Positions 11,851 to 17,288 of a stretch of DNA of 64,000 nt are shown here, in pieces; the first letter of the stretch is position 1, and every line of letters starts with the position of its first letter. Under the pieces are notes generated by a model that did no database searches, was not told the origin of the DNA, and was given only the letters and a program-made list of their open reading frames with translations. The stretch lies in assembly GCA_029253085.1 (NCBI GenBank), contig JAQXAF010000016.1, forward strand, positions 1 to 64,000, given 5' to 3'. The translations under genes and the position numbers were made by a program. This stretch comes from Luminiphilus sp. (GTDB lineage: Bacteria > Pseudomonadota > Gammaproteobacteria > Pseudomonadales > Halieaceae).

Positions 11851-12368
11851 AGTGGGTTTCCCGGTATTTCGCCGCGATGAAGTTGAACCGCACTCAGCCT
11901 GAGGCCGTGGGTGGAACATTTCCTGAGTAATGTACCAATATCCACACCATTGGGCATTAGATATTCATTGCCCAGCAAGTCACCGAGGGGCTTAAGTACA
12001 AAATCTCTTTGGTATAAACCCGGGTGCGGCAGCGTCAGCCGTTCGCTTTGTACTGATGTGTTGCCGTAGAAGAGTAAGTCGAGGTCGATGCATCGCTCTC
12101 CCCAGTGCCTCTTACGAACTCGGCCCATCGCGGTTTCTATTCCAAGTAGATCTGTGAGAAGCGTCGCAGGATCTGAGGTTGTATCAATCTGGGCGCAGGC
12201 ATTTAGAAAGGGAGGTTGATCGCGGGGACCCATAGGTAATGATTCGTAAACCGAAGAGACTGCGATCAGGCCAGTATTGGCCAGTGCGGCCAAGGCCTCG
12301 CAGGCCCTGCGAAGTTGGATGGCAGGTGCTTCAATATTTGATCCCAGCCCCACGAATGCCTGGGTCAA
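11847..12368 (-). CDS. folK: 2-amino-4-hydroxy-6-hydroxymethyldihydropteridine pyrophosphokinase
   Basis: AFVGLGSNIEAPAIQLRRA; RCIDLDLLFYGN; LTLPHPGLYQRDFVLKPL. Confidence 0.95.
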   Translation of the reverse strand: MTQAFVGLGSNIEAPAIQLRRACEALAALANTGLIAVSSVYESLPMGPRDQPPFLNACAQIDTTSDPATLLTDLLGIETAMGRVRKRHWGERCIDLDLLFYGNTSVQSERLTLPHPGLYQRDFVLKPLGDLLGNEYLMPNGVDIGTLLRKCSTHGLRLSAVQLHRGEIPGNPL

Positions 12369-13618
12369 TCCTCTTTCTTCCTTCTCGGTCTGCGGCGGCG
12401 AGGCGGCTTAGTCTCCGTGCGTGGTGGCGCAGTCCCCACCAATTCTGGGTACTCTAACTGCTGTTGCTCCCAGAATTTACCCGCATTATCTAAGTCTTCT
12501 GATGATTCCTCGCGCAGAAGCAGTAAGTCATAAGCGGCGCGAAATCTTCGGTCAGCGATGAGGTCTTTGACGCGTTTGGGTTGTCGTCGTTCAAGGCGGG
12601 ATTGTAGTTCCCAAATCTCTCGGACAGGGTAAGAGAAGCGTTTCGGGATCGCCATTTTCTTGCAAGTTTCAGCAATGACTTGCTGCCCTGCACTGTGGAT
12701 AGCCTGCGTTGCCGCTTCGCCTCCCCGTATCAAGTTATCGGCGCGTGTCTGCACGACAGGCCAAAGTAGTGCGGCGAGCAAAAATGCCGGCGTCACATGG
12801 CGGCCATCTTTTACTCGCTGATCCGTATTGCCCATAGCTTGAGTAACCAGCTTTTTAAAGCGGGGTTCCTTTTCGATTAGAAACGCCGCATCAGAACACA
12901 AGCTGTCTAAGAGCTGGTAGCGTAGAAGCAGTAAAAGTGTTGGGCGGCCGTAGCCAGCCATAAATAATTTGAGGAATTCGTCAAAAAGCCGCGCCGGTGG
13001 TATCTCTGCTAACAGTGGGCCGCACGCGGCGATCGCCGATTCGGTTTCTGGCTCGATATCAAATTGTAATTTTGCAGCAAAGCGAACGACTCTTAGCATT
13101 CGCACAGGGTCTTCACGGTAGCGGGTTTGAGGGTCCCCCAAAATACGCACCAGCCGGTCATTAATGTCTTGATGGCCCGCCATCTGATCTAAAACAGACT
13201 CGTCAATCGGGTTGTAGTACATCGCGTTGATGGTGAGATCACGTCGGGCAGCGTCTTCCGCTAAAGTTCCATAAACGTTGTCCCGGAGCAGCAATCCTTT
13301 GTCTGATTGCTTACTGGCGCTTTTACCAGATCCCTCGCTTACATGAGGGCCGCGATAGGTTGTGACTTCTATGATTTCGCGCCCGTCTCTGACATGCACG
13401 ATTTGGAAGCGGCGCCCAATGATCCGTGCGCTTCGAAAGAGTCCTTTGATTTCTTCCGGGGTGGCATTCGTTGCGACATCAAAATCCTTGGGTTCACCTC
13501 CAAGGATGAGGTCTCTGACGGCGCCACCAACAATGTAGCCCTCGTAATTTGCAGTACGGAGTTTCTCCACCACGCGAATAGCGGCGGGGCTCACGTGTTT
13601 GCGATTGACCTTGTGCAT
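12365..13618 (-). CDS. pcnB: Poly(A) polymerase I
   Basis: YIVGGAVRDLILGGEPKDFDVATNATPEEIKGLFRSARIIGRRF; C-terminal basic tail; folK neighbour. Confidence 0.95.
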   Translation of the reverse strand: MHKVNRKHVSPAAIRVVEKLRTANYEGYIVGGAVRDLILGGEPKDFDVATNATPEEIKGLFRSARIIGRRFQIVHVRDGREIIEVTTYRGPHVSEGSGKSASKQSDKGLLLRDNVYGTLAEDAARRDLTINAMYYNPIDESVLDQMAGHQDINDRLVRILGDPQTRYREDPVRMLRVVRFAAKLQFDIEPETESAIAACGPLLAEIPPARLFDEFLKLFMAGYGRPTLLLLLRYQLLDSLCSDAAFLIEKEPRFKKLVTQAMGNTDQRVKDGRHVTPAFLLAALLWPVVQTRADNLIRGGEAATQAIHSAGQQVIAETCKKMAIPKRFSYPVREIWELQSRLERRQPKRVKDLIADRRFRAAYDLLLLREESSEDLDNAGKFWEQQQLEYPELVGTAPPRTETKPPRRRRPRRKKED

Positions 13619-13717
13619 AGCCTTGGGGATTAGTGACACTGAATGTCCTCTGGGCACTTTGGCGGGTAGTGTACTATCCAGCGGCGCTCAGGGGGAGTTT
13701 GGCTTTCAAACGGCAGA

Positions 13718-13744
13718 AAAGAAAATGGGGAAGAAATCTTCCCC
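13718..13744 (-). terminator. Intrinsic terminator of candidate sRNA
   Basis: Minus strand GGGGAAG-ATTT-CTTCCCC (13744-13727) followed by ATTTTCTTTT. Confidence 0.75.
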
Positions 13745-13805
13745 ACCCAGGTCCGTTCTTGCTTTGTTATTGCTTTTGGGCCACTTATTATTATTTGGGC
13801 TCTGC
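13718..13805 (-). ncRNA. Candidate small RNA in the crcZ position (regulator-pcnB gap), with AAnAAnAA motifs
   Basis: Downstream of a -24/-12 match (minus strand TTGGCACATGTTCTGCTC, 13831-13814); contains AAATAATAATAAG (13796-13784) and CAATAACAAAG (13772-13762); ends in hairpin GGGGAAGATTTCTTCCCC plus T-rich tail. 5' end estimated about 12 nt after the -12 element. Confidence 0.55.
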
Positions 13806-13813
13806 CTAATGTT

Positions 13814-13831
13814 GAGCAGAACATGTGCCAA
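13814..13831 (-). promoter_or_regulatory. Sigma54 -24/-12 promoter
   Basis: TTGGCAC-ATGTT-CTGCT with 10 nt between invariant GG and GC. Confidence 0.7.
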
Positions 13832-13904
13832 GAGATAAAACCATATAAATAACAGGGGCTTAGTGATTTTTTAGTCACTGGAGACGGAGCGGTATGCATA
13901 AAAG

Positions 13905-13931
13905 TGTTACCTTTATTCCCCATGGTGTTAC
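13905..13931. promoter_or_regulatory. Candidate enhancer: two TGTTAC repeats 21 bp apart, about 100-125 bp upstream of the candidate sRNA start
   Basis: Plus strand GTGTTAC at 13904-13910 and 13925-13931 (exact 7-mer direct repeat, 21-bp period). Confidence 0.5.
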
Positions 13932-13957: not shown

Positions 13958-15364
13958 TTAGCGCTGGCTGCGCTTACCCGGTTGGGTGCGCGGTAAGTCA
14001 AAGCGCTGCCGTCTTTCCCAGAGACACTTCCGGCTCACCCCGAGCTTTTGTGCTAGCTGTGTTTCACTCATGGAGTCCTGATGCTCAAGGACAAAGCGCA
14101 TAAAATAATCTTCCAAAGACAGCTCTTCATCGGCTGCTGAGGCGTCCGCAGTGTCGCTCTCAGATGTCAGTTCGCTAATGATCGATAAGTGCGCCTCAGG
14201 GCCTTTTGCTGACGACGTCAGGGCCATATCGTGCACTTCTATGAAATCACCTTCAGCCATCACCAAACCGCGCTCTACGGCGTGCTCGAGTTCCCTAACG
14301 TTACCGGGCCAAGGGTGATGAACTATGGCACTGATGGCGGTTGCGCTTAAAGGGCGATGCTGCAGGTCCAGCTTTTCTGCCAGAGTTTCGGCAAACCACT
14401 GGGCCATCGAGGTTATATCGATCGATCGTTGTCTTAAGGGGGGAATTGTCAGGCCTAGGACATTTATTCGATAAAACAAGTCTCGCCTAAATTCATTGCG
14501 GCCTGCCAGTGCCGACAAATCCCTGTGGGTTGCACAAATAAGCCTGACATCCACCGTTTTGCTGCTGACGGCACCGATTTGCCGAATCTCCCCTTCTTGG
14601 ATAAAGCGCAGTAGTCTCGCCTGTGCAGATTGAGGAAGCTCGCCGATTTCGTCGAGGAAAAGTGTGCCGCCATTAGCGGCTTCGATGAGTCCCATGCGAT
14701 TGCTGGTCGCGCCTGTAAAGGCGCCCTTCTCATAACCAAAAAGTTCCGACTCAATGAGAGATTCTGGGATGGCAGCACAGTTGAGAGCGACAAGAGGCCG
14801 GCCGTGTCGTCTACTTAACGTGTGTACGCGCCTCGCGGTTAACTCTTTACCTGTTCCAGTTTCACCTTGAATGAGTACCGTTGAGTCGGTTCGCGCGACT
14901 TTTTGTATCTGTTCATCTAGTTTTTGTAATGTTGGGCATTGACCCTGAAAAAATTGTCGGGTGGGTTGGCTGCGCTGTTTGCTCGTGTTTGCTGAGGGAC
15001 CTTGGCGGGGGAGCGCCGCGGCGACCACATTCAGTAAATCGTCATCGGAGCAGGGTTTCGCCAGATAGTCGACGGCACCAGCTTTCATTGAGTCAACCGC
15101 TGAGCGCAGGCTAGCGTAGTTGGTCATGACAATGACCGGTACTGGGCTGGCTGACCGAATAAGTTCAGCGCCGCTGGCGCCCGCGAGCTTAAGCTCGGTC
15201 ACAATGAGATCAAACTCAGCAAGGTTATAGCGGGTCTCGGCTTCCTGAACCCCTGAAGCCTCGGCAACCTTATAGTCCCTCGACTCTAAAACCCTTCGTA
15301 AGGCTTGTCGTTGAGAGGGCTCGTCATCAACCAGTAATATCAGTGGCATACAATCTGAATCCAT
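13958..15364 (-). CDS. Sigma54-dependent response regulator, CbrB-like, with Glu at the phosphoacceptor position
   Basis: Receiver (LILLVDDE ... FDLIVTELKLAGASG ... MTNYAS ... AKP), AAA+ with GETGTGKE and GAFTGA, C-terminal Fis-type HTH (ETQLAQKLGVSRKCLWERRQRF); pcnB downstream, gluQ-dksA upstream. Start uncertain (15349, 15364 or 15379). Confidence 0.9.
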   Translation of the reverse strand: MDSDCMPLILLVDDEPSQRQALRRVLESRDYKVAEASGVQEAETRYNLAEFDLIVTELKLAGASGAELIRSASPVPVIVMTNYASLRSAVDSMKAGAVDYLAKPCSDDDLLNVVAAALPRQGPSANTSKQRSQPTRQFFQGQCPTLQKLDEQIQKVARTDSTVLIQGETGTGKELTARRVHTLSRRHGRPLVALNCAAIPESLIESELFGYEKGAFTGATSNRMGLIEAANGGTLFLDEIGELPQSAQARLLRFIQEGEIRQIGAVSSKTVDVRLICATHRDLSALAGRNEFRRDLFYRINVLGLTIPPLRQRSIDITSMAQWFAETLAEKLDLQHRPLSATAISAIVHHPWPGNVRELEHAVERGLVMAEGDFIEVHDMALTSSAKGPEAHLSIISELTSESDTADASAADEELSLEDYFMRFVLEHQDSMSETQLAQKLGVSRKCLWERRQRFDLPRTQPGKRSQR

Positions 15365-15397
15365 TGCGAAAAAAGGCAAAGAACCTGAGTCGACACA

Positions 15398-15439
15398 TTA
15401 CTTTAAGTAACCAAGTAACAAAATGGGATTATTTGTTAC
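15398..15439. promoter_or_regulatory. Cluster of GTAAC/GTTAC motifs with inverted repeat GTAACAAA-N9-TTTGTTAC upstream of the regulator
   Basis: GTAACAAA at 15415-15422, TTTGTTAC at 15432-15439; extra GTAAC at 15407-15411; palindrome TTACTTTAAGTAA at 15398-15410. Confidence 0.5.
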
Positions 15440-16311
15440 CTAGGTACCCGTAGGGGATCCCATCGAGACCGGCTCCACTCGAGCACAGACTCAGAATCTG
15501 TGAGTTCAGAAGGGGGGGGAGGCTGCCCCAAGTCTCGTAGCGCCGACCTCAAATTTTTAGCTGGGTGCTTGTTGTCTAGCGCTGACGCGCCCTGCTGCTT
15601 GCTGAGTTTGGCGCCGTATTGATCCTTTAAGACGGGCAAGTGCCCATATTCAGGCGACGGTAGGGCAAGCCTACGCTGTAAAAAAATTTGTCGGGGAGTT
15701 GAGTCCAGCAAATCTCGCCCACGAATTACCTGTGTAGCTAAGGGGGCGACATCATCTAACGCCGCAGCGAGCTGGTAAGCGTAGAGCCCGTCCCGACGCC
15801 GGACGACAAAATTGCTGAGTTGTTGGCCTAGGTGCCAGTTTTGGCGGCCCAAGAACGTGTCATTCAAAGTAATGACGGTGTTTTGAGGTACTTTAACCCT
15901 GATACTGGTGGGCTCTGTTGTGGTGAAATTTTTGCTGGCACAGTCATTTTGACAACTGCCGGTAGCGTCGAGCATAGCCCGGGTGCAGCTACAATGAAAA
16001 AGGTCACCGAGCTCGTCCAAGGTTTTTAGGGCCTGATCGTAGCGATGGGCGTGATCACTTTGATACTGAATGTCGCCGTCGAATCGCAATCCATGGGTTT
16101 CAAGGCTCACCTGAATGGCCCCTACCGAACCTGACACCGCTCTGGGTGGATCAATGTCGTCGATTCTCAGACGCCACAGGGCGCCCTGAGCGCGGGCTTG
16201 CAGGAAGCTACCTAGCGCTGCCAGTAACGAGCCGGCGTGCAAGGGGCCCGTAGGAGAGGGCGCAAAGCGCCCTACAGCGTTGCCGGAGTGAAGCTCATCA
16301 AGGGGGTTGAT
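15436..16311 (-). CDS. gluQ: Glutamyl-Q tRNA(Asp) synthetase; 5' end abnormal
   Basis: GRFAPSPTGPLHAGSLLAALGSFLQARAQGALWRLRIDDIDPPRA; Cys motif CSCTRAMLDATGSCQNDC. The 'M' at 16242 in the ORF track is the Leu (TTG) of GPLHAGS. Reading frame continues upstream to a TAG at 16345-16347 without ATG/GTG/TTG; start given is only an arbitrary in-frame ATC. Confidence 0.85.
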   Translation of the reverse strand: MNPLDELHSGNAVGRFAPSPTGPLHAGSLLAALGSFLQARAQGALWRLRIDDIDPPRAVSGSVGAIQVSLETHGLRFDGDIQYQSDHAHRYDQALKTLDELGDLFHCSCTRAMLDATGSCQNDCASKNFTTTEPTSIRVKVPQNTVITLNDTFLGRQNWHLGQQLSNFVVRRRDGLYAYQLAAALDDVAPLATQVIRGRDLLDSTPRQIFLQRRLALPSPEYGHLPVLKDQYGAKLSKQQGASALDNKHPAKNLRSALRDLGQPPPPSELTDSESVLEWSRSRWDPLRVPR

Positions 16312-16349: not shown

Positions 16350-17288
16350 TTAGCCGAGCTCCTGGCGCTCTTTTATTTCCGATAGGGTTTTACAATCGAT
16401 ACACAAGGTTGCCGTTGGACGGGCTTCCAATCGCTTCACGCCTATCTCGATACCGCAGGCGTCGCAATAACCATAATCGTCGATGGTGATTCGCTCTAGC
16501 GTGCCATCGATTTTTTTGATCAGCTTACGTTCTCTGTCGCGTGTTCGAAGCTCTAGACTGAATTCTTCTTCCTGAGTAGCTCTGTCGGCAGGATCAGGGA
16601 AGTTCGAGGCTTCATCTTTCATGTGTGAAACAGTGCGCGTGACTTCATCAACGAGCTCTGCCCGCCAATGCAACAAGAGACCACGAAAGTGCTCTAGCTG
16701 CTTCTCATCCATGTACGAGTCGCCCCGGGATGGCTTGTAGGGTTTGAAGTCATCAAAGTTTTGCACACTACCGACCGCCCGGGCGACCTTCTTAGAGCTG
16801 GCCTTGGCTCGATTCGCGGATTTTTTTGTGGGCGCTTTCACCGAGGTCTTAGAAGTCTTAGTACTTGCAGTGGCAGTTTTACCTTTGGTGGCTTTCGCTG
16901 CCTTTGCCGGCGCTGTTTTAGCAGCCGCCTTGGCGGTTACAGACTTGGAAGCTGGAGCTTTACTGGCAGCGGCCTTTTTTGCTGGCGCTTTTGCCGGTGC
17001 TTTTTTAACCGCAACTTTCTTTGCCGGCGCTTTGGTGGCTGCTTTTTTAGCAACAGCTTTTTTTACCGGGGCTTTGGTGACAGCTTTGCTAGCGGCGGCC
17101 TTTTTCGGTGGGGCTTTGGTGGCAGCTTTTTTAGCGGCAGCCTTTTTTACCGGGGCTTTGGCGACGGCTTTTTTAGCGGCAGCTTTTTTTACCGGGGCTT
17201 TGGCGGCGGGCTTTTTGGCGGCCACTTTTTTGGTCGCAGCCTTTTTGGGCGCTACTTTCGTCTTGGTGTTGGATTTTTTGGTGGCCAT
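16350..17288 (-). CDS. dksA: RNA polymerase-binding transcription factor DksA with long Lys/Ala-rich N-terminal extension
   Basis: C-terminal DksA (YMDEKQLEHFRGLLLHWRAELVDEV ... FPDPADRATQEEEFSLELRTRDRERKLIKKIDGTLERI ... CDACGIEIGVKRLEARPTATLCIDCKTLSEIKE); N-terminal about 170 aa of KAPVKKAAAKKA repeats. Confidence 0.93.
   Translation of the reverse strand: MATKKSNTKTKVAPKKAATKKVAAKKPAAKAPVKKAAAKKAVAKAPVKKAAAKKAATKAPPKKAAASKAVTKAPVKKAVAKKAATKAPAKKVAVKKAPAKAPAKKAAASKAPASKSVTAKAAAKTAPAKAAKATKGKTATASTKTSKTSVKAPTKKSANRAKASSKKVARAVGSVQNFDDFKPYKPSRGDSYMDEKQLEHFRGLLLHWRAELVDEVTRTVSHMKDEASNFPDPADRATQEEEFSLELRTRDRERKLIKKIDGTLERITIDDYGYCDACGIEIGVKRLEARPTATLCIDCKTLSEIKERQELG
16950..17201 (-). repeat. 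About six tandem 42-nt (14-aa) repeats within dksA
   Basis: KAPVKKAAAKKAVA/KAPVKKAAAKKAAT/KAPPKKAAASKAVT/KAPVKKAVAKKAAT/KAPAKKVAVKKAPA/KAPAKKAAASKAPA. Confidence 0.85.

Follow-up and report, generated by a model that had tools for sequence, protein, structure and literature searches.

Does the short gap between a cbrB-like gene and pcnB in a Luminiphilus genome encode an RNA that works like CrcZ, and if so, what drives its synthesis? In P. aeruginosa, CrcZ titrates Hfq via A-rich stretches (PMC4063720), and the CbrAB-CrcZ system has been described as exclusive to Pseudomonadaceae (PMC8871633, PMC6296734); we found no literature pairing CrcZ with Halieaceae. The window analysed here (64,000 nucleotides from a metagenome genome that is 79% complete and measures 2.29 Mb) had been annotated initially, from its letters alone, as carrying a candidate miniature CrcZ-like RNA in this gap. 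Our results suggest that CbrB, working without its kinase, is dedicated to the synthesis of a single RNA of about 87 nt, mini-CrcZ, a CrcZ-type decoy that would titrate Hfq/Crc. We put the probability of this reading at roughly 0.75.

On the minus strand the genes run dksA, gluQ, cbrB, the gap, pcnB, folK, dNK, panB and panC, with the names folK, panB and panC assigned from translations. The features on which the argument turns are as follows.

15436..16242, minus strand: gluQ, in Luminiphilus directly upstream of cbrB; the interval here is 57 nt.
13958..15379, minus strand: cbrB-like sigma54 activator with a receiver, an AAA+ domain with GAFTGA and an HTH; Glu at the phosphoacceptor position (DLIVTELKL).
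13926..13931, minus strand: upstream CbrB-type subsite GTAACA.
13905..13910, minus strand: downstream CbrB-type subsite GTAACA, 21 bp from the upstream subsite.
13815..13831, minus strand: sigma54 -24/-12 promoter TTGGCACATGTTCTGCT, by sequence match and conservation.
13718..13804, minus strand: predicted ~87-nt CrcZ-like RNA (mini-CrcZ), its start placed by promoter spacing and a sharp conservation edge.
13785..13795, minus strand: A-rich Hfq-type motif 1, AATAATAATAA.
13764..13771, minus strand: A-rich Hfq-type motif 2, AATAACAA.
13747..13754, minus strand: GGACCTGG block containing ACCTGG.
13717..13744, minus strand: intrinsic terminator GGGGAAG-ATTT-CTTCCCC with a T-rich tail, scored as a terminator.
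12365..13657, minus strand: pcnB (poly(A) polymerase), conserved as the next gene downstream.

In addition, the DksA encoded at 16350-17288 of the window carries a Lys/Ala-rich, histone-H1-like N-terminal extension of ~190 aa, and a similar extension is present in another genome, G007.

At base resolution, the elements listed in the initial annotation are all in place on the minus strand: two GTAACA repeats 21 bp apart (13931-13926 and 13910-13905), the -24/-12 match at 13831-13815, the A-rich elements AAATAATAATAAG and CAATAACAAAG with their AAnAAnAA patterns, and then GGGGAAGATTTCTTCCCC followed by a T-rich tail, which form the terminator region. A sigma54 pattern is by itself no better than chance in this window, where it occurs 6 times against 6.3 expected if one mismatch is allowed, and we rejected it as stand-alone evidence. 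That the gap elements are more than chance follows instead from comparative evidence. When ten Luminiphilus gaps are compared pairwise, the RNA body has an identity of 0.91, followed by the terminator (0.88), the -24/-12 element (0.80) and the GTAACA region (0.76). The corresponding values are 0.28-0.47 for the spacers and 0.34 for the stretch from the promoter to the predicted start. Conservation has a sharp edge at the predicted transcript start, and the T-rich tail also lies above the spacer level. The check across relatives proposed in the initial annotation came out in its favor, with promoter, RNA body and terminator conserved in the Luminiphilus gaps and the A-rich motifs invariant in 52 modules aligned from the family.

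The element TGGCAY...TGC is common to all 80 loci at which the promoter was measured, and upstream of it GTAAC/GTTAC boxes number 222 in these 80 loci, whereas 17.8 would be expected. TGTTAC and GTAACA are the subsites of P. putida CbrB (PMC6296734). The boxes lie at -124/-105/-82 in genera possessing CbrA and at -102/-81 in Luminiphilus, whose enhancer is thus the simpler one. A strict tandem GTAACA pair occurs once in the window's genome, and the exact pair is restricted to the mini-CrcZ promoter in this genome, HTCC2080, L. syltensis and one further genome (G058). A single tandem pair in each genome that has one, always at the same promoter, suggests a dedicated activator.

How widespread is the RNA, and is it a CrcZ? 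In nearly all of the 80 loci the terminator stands at a near-constant distance from the promoter, corresponding to a predicted RNA of 85-96 nt. A covariance model built from the 52 modules recovers the RNA in 131 of 140 Halieaceae genomes, and in 78 of 78 of good quality; Luminiphilus genomes with the RNA have a single copy each, and many other genera have two. When 84,980 species were scanned for a pattern of its 3' block, 45 stretches were returned. Most by far are labelled Halieaceae or Luminiphilus (L. syltensis NOR5-1B among them), one comes from HTCC2080 and one bears the label Haliea; the remaining labels are a few that read only gamma- or proteobacteria and one Alteromonadaceae. The cbrB-RNA-pcnB synteny extends to Pseudomonas-type loci and to several further families within the order. 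At the gathering threshold, Rfam gave no match in the window or in 11 relatives. The CrcZ model (RF01675) nevertheless matches the module at 22.3 bits (E = 1.3e-4; gathering score 95) over model positions 277-378, with the layout of the 3' part of Pseudomonas CrcZ, namely two A-rich motifs followed by a GGGGA..UCCCC terminator. As in RF01675, the RNA is flanked by cbrB and pcnB on its own strand, has a sigma54 -24/-12 promoter with CbrB subsites upstream (judged by sequence and conservation) and carries more than one AAnAAnAA site, two conserved ones being predicted to engage the Hfq distal face. It measures ~87 nt to the terminator, not the ~400 nt of that family, and because both length and score fall short we do not file it as a member.

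The initial annotation was right that this RNA is far shorter than its Pseudomonas counterpart, but its word miniature should not be read as an unusual reduction, since the short form is common outside Pseudomonadaceae. Judged from predicted ends, the non-Pseudomonas lineages examined usually have an RNA of some 90-110 nt, and it is the ~400-nt Pseudomonas CrcZ that looks like the enlarged form. Weak matches of our model lie at both ends of Pseudomonas CrcZ, from which we infer that it may have grown by joining short modules. In many non-Luminiphilus loci (L075-L079 among them) the first module is followed after ~100-250 nt by another in tandem, which has a terminator of its own; this implies either two RNAs, one short and one long, or an additional gene. 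One family (f31, locus L241) has two complete tandem copies, each with its own boxes and sigma54 promoter, and in another (f24) the one RNA is short and carries three A-rich stretches.

The 87-nt RNA folds no better than shuffles (z = -0.8), and folding energy was rejected as evidence. A hairpin presenting the first A-rich motif has clear covariation in the non-Luminiphilus genera (7.62 vs 6.07 +/- 0.29, reached in 0 of 1000 shuffles); within Luminiphilus this 5' hairpin shows no covariation, and we rejected it for that genus.

The proposed partners of the RNA are present. The genome search suggested in the initial annotation turned up both hfq (a profile match over the cut-off) and crc in the window's genome, which also encodes rpoN. 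The best solved relative of its Crc is P. aeruginosa Crc (4jg3, 1.5e-57). It reads ICGGWE and SSHAP where the ExoIII L118 has ICGDWN and SDHAP, so that the ExoIII catalytic residues are lost; a separate ExoIII is encoded besides, and a pyrE-like ORF adjoins crc. Crc was found in all 11 further Halieaceae genomes tested. As for targets, we examined 341 predicted gene starts of L. syltensis (400 kb taken as stretches, ~1/8 of the genome); A-rich motifs were not enriched there over patterns of the same composition, a weak null result given that the start calls are crude. The sample does contain a few good single A-rich candidates. In particular, AATAAGAATAAG at ~48160 of L. syltensis contig G112:C1, directly upstream of a GGAGG site and ATG, is a textbook-looking candidate Hfq target.

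Besides the folding and target results above, two points speak against a decoy: mini-CrcZ has two A-rich sites vs six in P. aeruginosa CrcZ (PMC4063720), and the invariant ACCTGG is left unexplained by a decoy model. An extension of the preferred reading, rather than a full alternative, would be a sponge for two proteins, with the A-rich motifs holding Hfq and the GGA-containing 3' part holding RsmA/CsrA. A review describes RsmA as binding Pseudomonas CrcZ in its 3' region (PMC8871633), and GGACCTGG(A)TGGGG retains GGA motifs in most modules. However, the GGA positions are not constant (second modules read GAGACC, and one genus reads TGAACC), and one short site would make a weak sponge; we consider this extension rather unlikely. 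Alternatively, ACCUGG, together with the neighboring GGGG, might pair with target mRNAs, the A-rich motifs serving only to recruit Hfq. The hexamer is the same in all 52 modules aligned from the family and reappears both in second modules and outside the family, in one other, and the high conservation of the RNA body would also suit such a base-pairing sRNA. Yet the A-rich motifs are just as invariant, their number varies among lineages as expected of a sponge, and the G-rich part is the terminator stem, which makes base pairing an unlikely principal function.

In Luminiphilus the regulatory input also differs from that of CrcZ. The loss of the kinase is the most unexpected part of our finding. 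In other Halieaceae genera the gluQ-cbrB interval accommodates a CbrA of ~990 aa, whereas in Luminiphilus it spans 49-85 nt, gluQ lying directly upstream of cbrB because cbrA is missing. A genus-wide protein search found no CbrA orthologue in Luminiphilus, so that the kinase for activation through CbrA-CbrB, as known for CrcZ, is missing at the locus and did not turn up elsewhere in the genome. Relocation of CbrA was considered and rejected, the best Luminiphilus match being a 30% identical transporter-kinase paralogue in L. syltensis. The 1179-aa transporter-kinase fusion of that species (G112:C1:524433-526202) lies ~11 kb from cbrB and is 30% identical to CbrA over the transporter part; it may be a CrbS-type acetate sensor.

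The regulator itself was initially called CbrB-like, and this holds as far as family goes: it is a sigma54 activator with GAFTGA and a CbrB-type HTH, it occupies the expected place in the order dksA-gluQ-(cbrA)-cbrB-pcnB, and it is 91% identical to HTCC2080 CbrB. It is not, however, a normal CbrB, since CbrA is absent and the phosphoacceptor Asp of its receiver is Glu. Alongside a quick tree we scored a quintet of receiver features (the acidic pair, the phosphoacceptor Asp, and the Thr, Tyr and Lys). The quintet is intact at 36 of 36 loci with full CbrA and at 4 of 4 whose CbrA is truncated but still has its kinase; one or more of the key phospho-switch residues are lost at 39 of 39 loci without CbrA vs 0 of 40 with the kinase. 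The changes differ by clade, with Asp to Glu in that of the window, Thr to Ala and Tyr to His in a second, and Asp to Gly with most residues lost in a third. A separate lineage (G041, locus L105) has Asp to Asn, and a CbrA-less locus of another family (L247) has lost Lys and Tyr. Kinase loss accompanied by receiver alteration has affected at least two lineages of Halieaceae and one in another family. In the first two clades the receiver is strongly constrained (dN/dS 0.016-0.031), and in the Asp-to-Gly clades it is relaxed (0.32-0.39 vs 0.06-0.10 for AAA+). Intermediate and more extreme states also occur. In genus g7 (L088, L109, L115, L116) a ~400-aa CbrA upstream of cbrB lacks the SLC5 transporter part and keeps the C-terminal part, and the receiver is intact. 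In G007 (genus g3; L239:6988-9440) cbrA and cbrB are both missing, and a degenerate A-rich RNA with a terminator lies between gluQ and pcnB, with no correctly spaced sigma54 site evident.

Such stepwise losses (a truncated CbrA in one genus, none in Luminiphilus, and no CbrB either in another genus), together with the relaxed receiver of some clades, might indicate that the RNA and CbrB merely persist as functionless relics after CbrA loss. We regard this as very unlikely, since boxes, promoter, RNA and terminator are strongly conserved, the AAA+ and HTH of CbrB are constrained, and so is the receiver in the window's clade (dN/dS 0.016). That the RNA is a leader or attenuator of pcnB instead of a free sRNA is highly improbable: pcnB does follow the gap at every readable Luminiphilus locus, but a strong terminator intervenes, a TAGTACACT block just before pcnB is separately conserved, and the gap ranges from 262 to 533 nt in Luminiphilus while module length is constant. 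The TAGTACACT block (window 13658-13680) resembles the -10 region of a promoter of pcnB's own. At one locus (L070, genome G096) a run of repeated CAGACCCTATT units occupies the gap between the RNA and pcnB.

Synteny, boxes, promoter, AAnAAnAA sites, terminator, conservation and the presence of hfq and crc all support the CrcZ-like reading of the initial annotation, and the mini-CrcZ module is real and conserved, and probably CrcZ-like in its working. In the kinase-less CbrB model, CbrB at the two GTAACA boxes would activate sigma54 polymerase at 13831-13815; mini-CrcZ, with about two Hfq sites, would titrate Hfq (with Crc) as CrcZ does; and mRNAs whose A-rich ribosome-binding sites keep them repressed would thereby be released. 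Directly visible in the genomes are the anatomy and conservation of the locus, the presence of hfq, crc and rpoN, the kinase loss and the receiver change; from these we infer that the RNA is transcribed, that CbrB activates it, that Hfq binds it and that targets are released. As CbrA is lost, CbrB must work without its kinase: it may be locked on (Asp to Glu), set by its own level or set by another receiver signal. The CbrB of P. putida has been described as "barely dependent on phosphorylation" (PMC6296734). A broader proposal, to which we give even odds, is that of a decapitated two-component system: Luminiphilus lost CbrA, as did other lineages on at least two independent occasions; the CbrB receiver was frozen, put to a new use or allowed to decay; in Luminiphilus, CbrB came to activate a single target, one ~87-nt Hfq decoy; and in one more genus the RNA has survived the loss of CbrA and CbrB alike. 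If this is true, carbon control would operate via CbrB level or a receiver ligand, with no phosphorelay.

These results show CbrAB-CrcZ in many families of the order, where the RNA appears to be usually compact, and would extend Pseudomonas-type carbon-catabolite control to a marine bacterial group without an earlier report of such control. Mini-CrcZ may offer a minimal natural Hfq decoy for study, and the compact RNAs suggest an origin of Pseudomonas CrcZ from short modules. The locus-by-locus match of kinase loss and receiver decay makes kinase-free running of a sigma54 activator directly testable, L. syltensis and HTCC2080 being cultured strains.

Among known systems, CrcZ itself (RF01675; Pseudomonas/Azotobacter; paralogues CrcY and CrcX) shares with mini-CrcZ the cbrB-pcnB location, GTAACA/GTTAC boxes, a sigma54 promoter and AAnAAnAA motifs, as well as a 3' layout of an A-rich loop, an A-rich stretch and a G-rich terminator. 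The differences lie in size and number of sites (~87 nt and two A-rich sites vs ~400 nt and six) and in the lack of a CbrA kinase in Luminiphilus. With the CbrA-CbrB system, Luminiphilus shares a CbrB orthologue, its GAFTGA AAA+ domain, a matching HTH and a conserved position, but it has no CbrA, its receiver Asp is replaced by Glu, and two boxes stand in place of three. In its working mini-CrcZ would resemble RsmZ/RsmY and CsrB, short RNAs whose repeated binding motifs titrate a translational repressor; the likeness drawn is one of working, and the motif is A-rich (for the Hfq distal face) instead of the GGA hairpins of those RNAs. Finally, like atypical and pseudo-receivers, the CbrB receiver here is under selection after losing standard phosphorylation residues; what sets it apart is that residue loss matches the loss of the cognate kinase locus by locus.
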